A DNA stretch of 64,000 nt from NCBI RefSeq assembly GCF_000745345.1, contig NZ_JQNR01000005.1, positions 930,001 through 994,000 on the forward strand. The letters run 5' to 3'. This DNA comes from Actinacidiphila yeochonensis CN732 (lineage in GTDB: Bacteria > Actinomycetota > Actinomycetes > Streptomycetales > Streptomycetaceae). Of the stretch, positions 34,653 to 59,703 are shown piece after piece. Numbering within the stretch: the first letter of the stretch is position 1; each line of letters begins with the position of its first letter. The notes under the pieces were generated by a model. The model saw only the letters and a program-made list of their open reading frames with translations. It was not told where the DNA came from and ran no database searches. Both the position numbers and the translations under genes were made by a program.

Positions 34653-34681
34653 TTCTTTGTCCACACCCTGTGGACAAAGAA
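34653..34681. promoter_or_regulatory. Inverted pair of DnaA boxes inside a perfect 13-bp hairpin
   Basis: Arms 34653-34665 and 34669-34681, 3-base loop. Each arm contains the 9-mer TTGTCCACA (34657-34665 and, inverted, 34669-34677), which is the Streptomyces DnaA box. It lies in a ~620-base C-rich interval (34164-34784) without a supported gene. It could instead be the terminator of the small leftward gene at 34785. Confidence 0.6.
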
Positions 34682-56759: not shown

Positions 56760-57689
56760 ATGTCATCGGCGAGCCGCTACACCTACCTGGGGCCTGAGGG
56801 CACCTTCACCGAGGCCGCGTTGCGCACCCTGCCGGAGGCGGCCACGCGCGAGCTGGTCCCGATGGTGTCGGTGCCGGCCGCGCTGGACGCGGTACGCGGC
56901 GGTGAGGCGGCGGCCGCCCTGGTGCCGATCGAGAACTCCGTGGAGGGCGGGATCACCACCACCCTCGACGAGTTGGCGTTCGGGCCGCCCCTGATGATCT
57001 ACCGCGAGGTGCTGCTGCCGATCGCCTTCGCGCTGCTGGTGCGCCCCGGCACCGCCCTGCCGGACGTCAAGACGGTGACCGGGCACCCGGCGGCCCAGGC
57101 GCAGGTGCGCCAGTGGCTCTCCGAGCACCTGCCGAACGCGGCGTGGGAGTCCTCCGCCTCCAACGCCGACGGCGCCCGCCTCGTGCAGGAGGGCCGCTAC
57201 GACGGCGCCTTCGCGGGAGAGTTCGCGGCGCCCACCTACGGGCTGGTACCACTGGCCACCGACATCCACGACGCCTCGAACGCCACCACCCGCTTCGTCC
57301 TGGTCGGCCGCCCCGCGCGGTTGGCGGCGCCGACCGGGGCGGACAAGACCACCGCGGTGTTCTGGCTCCGCGACAACCACCCGGGCGCGCTACTCGACCT
57401 GCTCCAGGAGTTCGCCGTCCGCGGGGTGAACCTGATGCGCATCGAGTCCCGGCCCACCGGTGAGGGCCTGGGCCAGTACTGCTTCTCGGTGGACGCCGAC
57501 GGGCACCTCACCGACCGGCGCGTCGGCGAGAGCCTGATGGGGCTGCACCGGCGCTGCCTCAGGGTGCGGTTCCTCGGCTCCTATCCGCGGGCCGGCGGGG
57601 AGGTGTCGGTCCCGCCGCGGGGCGCCGGGGACGCGGAGTTCAACGACGCCACGGACTGGCTGAACCGCGCCCTCGACGGACGCGTCTGA
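56760..57689 (+). CDS. pheA: Prephenate dehydratase
   Basis: Converts prephenate to phenylpyruvate in phenylalanine synthesis. 309 aa, MSSASRYTYLGPEGTFTEAAL. Catalytic-domain motifs: VPIENSVEGGITTTLDELAF (~58-77), VTGHPAAQAQ, and SNATTRFVLVGRPA with the catalytic Thr (~180). The C-terminal ACT domain (GALLDLLQEFAVRGVNLMRIESRPTG) gives feedback control by phenylalanine. TAGGCT 6 bases before the ATG indicates a leaderless mRNA. It is a stand-alone enzyme with no chorismate mutase domain, as in other actinobacteria. Confidence 0.97.
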   Translation: MSSASRYTYLGPEGTFTEAALRTLPEAATRELVPMVSVPAALDAVRGGEAAAALVPIENSVEGGITTTLDELAFGPPLMIYREVLLPIAFALLVRPGTALPDVKTVTGHPAAQAQVRQWLSEHLPNAAWESSASNADGARLVQEGRYDGAFAGEFAAPTYGLVPLATDIHDASNATTRFVLVGRPARLAAPTGADKTTAVFWLRDNHPGALLDLLQEFAVRGVNLMRIESRPTGEGLGQYCFSVDADGHLTDRRVGESLMGLHRRCLRVRFLGSYPRAGGEVSVPPRGAGDAEFNDATDWLNRALDGRV

Positions 57690-57859
57690 CCGCGTCCGGG
57701 GCCGCGGGAACCGGCGGAGCCGCCCCCTCCGGCCGGCAACCGGCGGCATCTGTGCGGGTGTTGCCGTCCCAGACGGCGCCGTCCGCAGCGCGTCACGGGC
57801 CCGCAACCCCGCAGCGGCCCCACGTCCACCAAGGCGCCGCCGACCTGCCATGTTCGCCT

Positions 57860-58254
57860 TTGTCCACCGGGTTATCCACAGGCTGGACGGCCGGCCTGTG
57901 GGTAACTGGGGACAAGTCGACAGTGGGCCGCGGTCTCGAAGGTGAAAAAATCGACAAACCGGCACACAGGCACCAGCTCGCCCCGGAGCACCCCAGGAGG
58001 CCCCTCGTCACCCCAATTCCCCCGCACCATACCCTCGAGTGAAGCGATCTCACTCGAAAGTGAGTGTGGAACGGGTTTGGACGGGGAATCCATGCCCGTT
58101 CACTCTCCAGCGGAAATGATCACCCCGGTTCTCCACAGATCTTCCCCACACCCTGTGGACAACGGACGTGAATTCCGCCTCACCCTGTGGATAACCCGGC
58201 GCCGGACGGCCTCGCGACCGCCTCGGCCCGCGTCGCCAACTCGGTTTCTCCACA
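57860..58254. promoter_or_regulatory. Cluster of DnaA-box-like 9-mers upstream of serS
   Basis: Within the 727-base gap 57690-58416 there are three perfect boxes: TTATCCACA 57872-57880, TTGTCCACA inverted 58154-58162, TTATCCACA inverted 58186-58194. Six near matches lie at 57860, 57897, 57907, 58129, 58142 and 58246. No gene is supported in the gap, which is lower in GC around 57930-58080. DnaA-box clusters outside oriC are known in Streptomyces coelicolor. Confidence 0.7.
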
Positions 58255-58416
58255 AGCCCGGTGACCCCGGGAGAGGGAGCGCCGGAATGCCGTTGACGAC
58301 CGAACTTACCCTTCGTTTCCCTCCTTTCCTCGGCTATTGCGTCGTAAGGGGCATAGCGGGCACCGCCCGCGGGTAATTCGTCATGTCCGGCGTCACCGAC
58401 CGGTAGCCTGGGCCCT

Positions 58417-59703
58417 GTGATCGACCTTCGCCTGCTTCGTGAGGACCCGGACCGCGTGCGTGCTTCCCAGCGCGCCCGAGGAGAGGACGTCGCCCTCGTC
58501 GACGAGCTGCTGTCCGCCGACGAACGGCGCAGGTCCGCCATCTCCCGCTTCGACGAGCTGCGCGCCGAGCAGCGGCAGCTCGGCAAGCAGATCCCCAAGG
58601 CGCAGGGGGAGGAGAAGACCGCGCTGCTGGCCCGCACCAAGGAGCTGGCCGAGGCCGTCAAGTCCGCCGACACCGAGCAGCAGCGGGCCGCCGACGACGC
58701 GCAGCAGCTCCTGCTCCGGCTGGGCAACCTGGTCCACCCCGACGCCCCGGTGGGCGGCGAGGAGGACTTCGTCGTCCTGGAGCAGATCGGCACCCCGCGC
58801 GACTTCGCCGCCGAGGGCTTCACCCCCAGGGACCACCTGGAGCTGGGCGAGATGCTCGGCGCCATCGACACCGAGCGCGGCGCCAAGGTCTCCGGCTCCC
58901 GCTTCTACTACCTCACCGGGATCGGCGCGCTGCTGGAGCTGGCCCTGGTCAACGCGGCGATCGCGCAGGCCACGGCGGCCGGCTTCACCCCCATGCTCAC
59001 GCCCAACCTCGTGCGCCCGGCGGCCATGGCCGGCACCGGCTACCTCGGCCAGGTCGAGGACGACGTCTACCGCCTGGAGAAGGACGACCTCTACCTGGTC
59101 GGTACCTCGGAAGTGCCGCTCGCGGCCTACCACATGGACGAGATCATCGAGGCGCCCCAGCTGCCGCTGCGGTACGCCGGCTTCTCCTCCTGCTACCGCC
59201 GCGAGGCCGGCTCCTACGGCAAGGACACCCGCGGCATCTTCCGGGTGCACCAGTTCGACAAGGTGGAGATGTTCGTCTACACCACGCCGGAGGAGGCGGA
59301 GGCCGAGCACCAGCGGCTGCTCGCCTGGGAGAAGCAGTGGCTCAGCTCGCTGGAGCTGCCCTTCCAGGTGATCGAGCTGGCCTCGGGCGACCTCGGCTCC
59401 TCGGCGTCCCGGAAGTTCGACTGCGAGGCGTGGGTCCCCACCCAGGGCAAGTACCGGGAGCTCACCTCCACCTCGAACACCACCCAGTTCCAGGCGCGGC
59501 GGCTGAACATCCGGCTCCGCGACAAGGAGGGCACCCGCCCCCTGGCCACCCTCAACGGCACCCTGTGCGCGGTCACCCGCACCATCGTCGCGCTGCTGGA
59601 GAACCACCAGCAGGCGGACGGCTCGGTCCGGGTGCCCGAGGTGCTCCGGCCCTACCTCGGCGGCCGGGAGGTCCTGGAGCCCGTCGCGGCAAGCCGCGCG
59701 TGA
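58417..59703 (+). CDS. serS: Serine--tRNA ligase
   Basis: Charges serine tRNAs, three of which lie in this window. The 428-aa class II enzyme begins [20 protein letters not shown]. It has the N-terminal coiled-coil arm (~30-105), motif 1 region ([15 protein letters not shown]), [16 protein letters not shown], motif 2 [19 protein letters not shown] and motif 3 [23 protein letters not shown] start with TAGCCT 7 bases upstream and no Shine-Dalgarno, so probably leaderless. I looked for a T-box leader and found none. The TGA overlaps the next GTG (GTGA). Confidence 0.98.

Follow-up and report, generated by a model that had tools for sequence, protein, structure and literature searches.

The question raised by this locus is why the gap between pheA and serS, well outside the replication origin, should carry a dense group of DnaA boxes. 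The window analysed here, a 64-kb stretch of a 7.8 Mb genome (G000, contig C5, positions 930001–994000), was examined for the composition of this group, and relatives were compared for its conservation, spacing and position relative to oriC.

The box cluster in the pheA–serS gap

The pheA–serS gap spans positions 57690–58416 of the window (727 bp) with no apparent gene inside, and 57860–58254 within it contains nine DnaA-box-like 9-mers: three exact matches to TTRTCCACA, five with one mismatch and one with two (Table 1). The preliminary description had reported about nine boxes, three of them exact, in 400 bases, and the same count was found on recheck. It had also called the interval gene-free and lower in GC, in agreement with a GC content of 0.63 across the cluster vs 0.745 across the window, and the box density far above expectation. 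Shuffled over its full 64 kb, the window gave on average 0.04 exact matches and 5.0 with one mismatch, against three exact boxes and eight at no more than one mismatch in 395 bp (Poisson estimate about 2e-17), which agrees with that claim. The DnaA-box cluster is not due to chance.

The boxes fall into two half-sites, 57860–57915 and 58129–58194, plus the box at 58246–58254. An Rfam scan of the window matched tRNAs alone, and no parS sites were found within the window. Exact boxes were over-represented genome-wide, with 50 copies of TTGTCCACA vs 9 for the reversed motif and 41 copies of TTATCCACA vs 0.

Table 1. Boxes, conserved motifs and flanking genes of the pheA–serS gap (window positions)
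Feature	Position	Strand	Evidence or remark
pheA, prephenate dehydratase, flanking gene	56760..57689	+	Pfam PDT and ACT
Weak DnaA box TTGTCCACC	57860..57868	+	12 bp upstream of box 2
DnaA box 2, exact TTATCCACA	57872..57880	+	Most conserved box; footprint aGTTATCCACAGG
Weak DnaA box TTACCCACA	57897..57905	-	25 bp from box 2
Weak DnaA box TTGTCCCCA	57907..57915	-	Motif match
Conserved GTCGACA adjoining box; possible weak DnaA-box variant	57916..57922		Footprint
Second conserved (G)TCGACAAA motif, TTTGTCGAC on - strand	57950..57958		Footprint
Conserved 72-bp central block between half-sites	58020..58091		Conservation
Weak DnaA box TTCTCCACA	58129..58137	+	25 bp ahead of box 7
Two-mismatch DnaA box TTCCCCACA	58142..58150	+	Motif match
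DnaA box 7, exact TTGTCCACA	58154..58162	-	Motif match
DnaA box 8, exact TTATCCACA	58186..58194	-	32 bp from box 7; 30–32 bp in most relatives
Weak DnaA box TTCTCCACA	58246..58254	+	Motif match
Conserved CCGGTAGCCTGG directly before serS GTG start	58400..58411	+	Footprint; putative promoter element
serS, seryl-tRNA synthetase, flanking gene	58417..59703	+	Pfam Seryl_tRNA_N and tRNA-synt_2b

Conservation across the Streptomycetaceae and an unlikely role in serS control

A search with PheA was used to collect 80 named Streptomycetaceae loci for a survey of the gap, the nearest named relatives being Streptomyces sp. NRRL F-5123 and Actinacidiphila species. At all 80 loci serS was located downstream of pheA and the gap contained 2–4 exact and 4–8 total boxes. 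The density of exact boxes was 4.67 per kb in the gaps vs 0.022 per kb elsewhere in the same loci, and a reversed-motif control found 0 exact matches in the 80 gaps. A further 17 genomes, mostly one per genus, concurred, with the exception of rearrangements in two genera. The conservation check called for in the preliminary description therefore came out in its favour, as 80/80 gaps keep boxes and the 25-bp and 30–32-bp spacings are fixed.

For comparison, the DNA upstream of serS was taken from other actinomycete families; none of 34 such regions contained an exact box, and in 17 of them pheA was inside the 2.5 kb retrieved. Because it is kept family-wide and the 34 other-family regions have no exact box, the cluster is a Streptomycetaceae feature as far as sampled. 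The survey widens the known range of such a cluster from a single species to the entire family, with absence from the other families tested.

The position of the cluster could suggest that serS (or pheA) is regulated through DnaA bound at these boxes, tying its expression to replication, as the preliminary description had proposed for serS. The cluster is upstream of serS in most species, DnaA acts as a transcription factor elsewhere (PMC8203912), and changes in the box-to-serS distance are somewhat periodic (mean cos 0.38 at 10.5 bp). However, a polysaccharide deacetylase gene was found between cluster and serS in Streptacidiphilus (L028, L036, L039) and similar genomes (G002, L152; G003, L150), and a PAP2/DAG-kinase-like gene, named by eye, in G015, where the boxes remain beside pheA. 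With another gene intervening in several genera, the cluster probably does not serve to control serS, and a role as a serS promoter element was rejected on the same grounds. Even within Streptomyces the last strong box also lies at widely varying distances from serS (approximately 120–340 bp), and other families keep pheA beside serS without an exact box. In addition, the conserved CCGGTAGCCTGG is likely the −10 element of a leaderless serS promoter, which would place the predicted promoter approximately 150 bp past the last box. Taken with these observations, regulation of serS or pheA is an improbable explanation, and the proposed tie between serS and replication fared poorly; given the residual phasing of the box-to-serS distance, the cluster may have a side effect on serS.

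A different arrangement was observed in G004, a member of a large-genome genus (L151, L154), where pheA is followed by almost no boxes but preceded, at a distance of approximately 1.2 kb, by three exact ones, which gives the impression of a relocated cluster.

Position relative to oriC and a likely DnaA sink

In the genome of the window, dnaA is located at C5:1096412, 108.6 kb from the cluster, and oriC at C5:1097887–1098463, approximately 110 kb from it. The earlier statement that no dnaA is near therefore holds inside the window and fails beyond it; the statement that the cluster is not oriC was borne out, as an oriC with 13 near boxes, none exact, was found elsewhere. Proximity to the origin was general, with a serS–dnaA distance of 64–134 kb in 13 other Streptomycetaceae genomes in which a single contig carries both genes.

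A secondary or former replication origin would be consistent with the origin-like number of boxes, but neither dnaA nor dnaN is present here, the true oriC lies outside the window, and even the AT-richest 40 bases here are 50% GC. With no AT-rich element and the true oriC elsewhere, this candidate was rejected as extremely improbable.

A known counterpart could be the D78 cluster of S. coelicolor, which reportedly binds DnaA approximately eight times better than oriC and whose deletion is said to have raised initiation. Three clusters, H69, H24 and D78, reportedly occupy a short segment centred on oriC in that species (Smulczyk-Krawczyszyn et al. 2006, J Bacteriol 188:6184).

Strong clusters were sought by mapping all boxes around oriC in two genomes, that of the window and G225, and were few in both. 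For the genome of the window these were the serS cluster at −109 kb (8 boxes, 3 exact), a cluster at −35 kb (5, 2 exact) and one at +20 kb (4, all 4 exact), with an additional palindromic box pair at −132 kb. For G225 they were the serS cluster at −80 kb (6 boxes, 4 exact), one at −35 kb (5, 1 exact) and one at +32 kb (5, 4 exact), with an additional weak cluster at −5 kb. Three strong clusters flanking oriC are thus common to both genomes, at serS, at dnaB and on the opposite side of oriC, and the DNA flanking the −35 kb and + side clusters matches between them. In both genomes the cluster at −35 kb from dnaA precedes dnaB (C5:1061381–1061618 in that of the window, L100) and is likely the counterpart of H24. 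The +20 kb cluster (C5:1116084–1116381, L099), with its four exact boxes between rhomboid and DUF881 genes, is likely the counterpart of H69.

Like D78, the serS cluster is origin-proximal, outside oriC and one of three clusters in a segment with oriC at its centre, and its several strong boxes lie in non-coding DNA. Its boxes are also predicted to be stronger than those of oriC, with three exact boxes vs none as a sequence proxy for DnaA affinity. D78 was reportedly studied by DnaA binding and by deletion in S. coelicolor, the cluster in the window by sequence analysis. We consider it highly probable that the cluster is an origin-proximal, high-affinity DnaA-box cluster orthologous to D78 that acts as a DnaA sink delaying re-initiation and is probably looped. 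Within this explanation we infer that DnaA binds, that it is titrated or inactivated there, that a loop forms and that the cluster is the same as D78. Identity with D78 is most likely given the matching layout and the contents of cosmid D78, to which we take serS (SCO3961) to belong. The suggestion in the preliminary description of an equivalent or related DnaA-titrating site is strongly supported by the family-wide conservation, the origin-proximal position and the three-cluster layout.

For the proposed mechanism, DnaA would bind both half-sites plus the box at 58246–58254. Because they are approximately 110 kb from oriC, the half-sites would be copied soon after initiation, leaving less free DnaA for the weak oriC boxes; the doubled sites would pull DnaA off these boxes and re-initiation would be delayed. 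In S. coelicolor, DnaA-box clusters are described as repressing untimely initiation (reviews PMC4585315 and PMC5742627), and one of these two reviews places them close to oriC. Likewise, several clusters outside the origin are found in Bacillus subtilis (Okumura et al. 2012), where removal of six DnaA-box clusters leads to early initiation (PMC5295017), although the B. subtilis system differs in having six redundant clusters with other genes and spacing. The cluster also resembles datA of Escherichia coli, for which no sequence homology is claimed, as a non-coding DnaA-box cluster restraining initiation with an oriC-relative position conserved between strains. The datA locus needs IHF and promotes DnaA-ATP hydrolysis, and the sequence of the serS cluster would fit titration and datA-like hydrolysis alike.

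Half-site spacing and the central block

In most species 25 bp separate box 2 from its minus-strand partner, and 30–32 bp the two right-hand boxes. The partner of box 2 is the TTACCCACA box in the window's own genus and reads TTGTCCCCA in most Streptomyces, and a plus-strand box 12–13 bp upstream of box 2 was present in 35 of the gaps mapped. The separation between half-sites in 78 loci was 255–261, 267–274, 278–282, 290 or 301–302 bp. A second sample of 72 genomes, obtained by pattern search over 256–286 bp and possibly overlapping in part with the first, had 0 separations at 262–266 bp and two at 272–277 bp. On a tree of 68 loci, the larger changes in separation were 8–12 bp in 11 of 14 cases, 30 bp in two and 4 bp in one. 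Changes in half-site separation mostly amount to about one helical turn.

Helical phasing, expressed as mean cos, was 0.65 between the half-sites, compared to the 0.38 given above for cluster to serS and 0.08 for pheA to cluster. Relative to pooled flank changes this gave p = 0.006 at 10.5 bp and 0.13 at 11 bp, so that significance hinges on the null and the period chosen, and the serS-side flank control was partly positive. Because the half-sites keep their orientation around the helix relative to each other, DnaA bound to both would probably form one looped complex. Apparently new are the layout in two phased arms and the survey across the family, neither of which was found described in a limited literature search. 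Two phased half-sites with a central block provide a testable architecture, and the natural variants in spacing and gene neighbourhood allow DnaA titration, an ordered loop and gene regulation to be separated.

The block at 58020–58091 is conserved between the half-sites, and the spacer length changes by 10–11 bp. The block is apparently non-coding, as length changes of this size argue against coding, and RNAalifold predicted no RNA structure for it. A site for another protein is possible. In S. coelicolor, ScbR2 bound the serS upstream region in a gel shift, and a 28-nt serS site was printed for SCO3961 (PMC4595836). The exact 28-nt site was found in G225 alone among 395 genomes; the pheA–serS gap of G225 has 6 boxes, 4 of them exact, with the predicted ScbR2 site between the half-sites.

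These observations bear on a reading that overlaps with the DnaA sink, in which the cluster would inactivate or reactivate DnaA, as datA or DARS does in E. coli, through an ordered complex that perhaps includes a third protein at the central block, instead of soaking up DnaA passively. The phasing of the half-sites and the conserved 72 bp between them are consistent with such a complex, as are the ScbR2 gel shift and the site in G225, but the letters of the ScbR2 site are not conserved in the window, and we regard this reading as possible though doubtful. A more specific version appears rather unlikely: here a two-arm, helically phased DnaA loop round the central block would form a Streptomycetaceae-specific switch acting on DnaA, which would be more than a passive sink and might take input from a gamma-butyrolactone receptor, for example ScbR2. 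If true, ScbR2-type input to a DnaA loop would link replication to development.

Elsewhere in the window, a perfect inverted repeat, TTCTTTGTCCACA-CCC-TGTGGACAAAGAA, was found at 34653–34681 with two exact DnaA boxes inside. It lies upstream of a minus-strand gene for an Rv2525c-like glycoside hydrolase and could be a hairpin or terminator, or a paired DnaA site.
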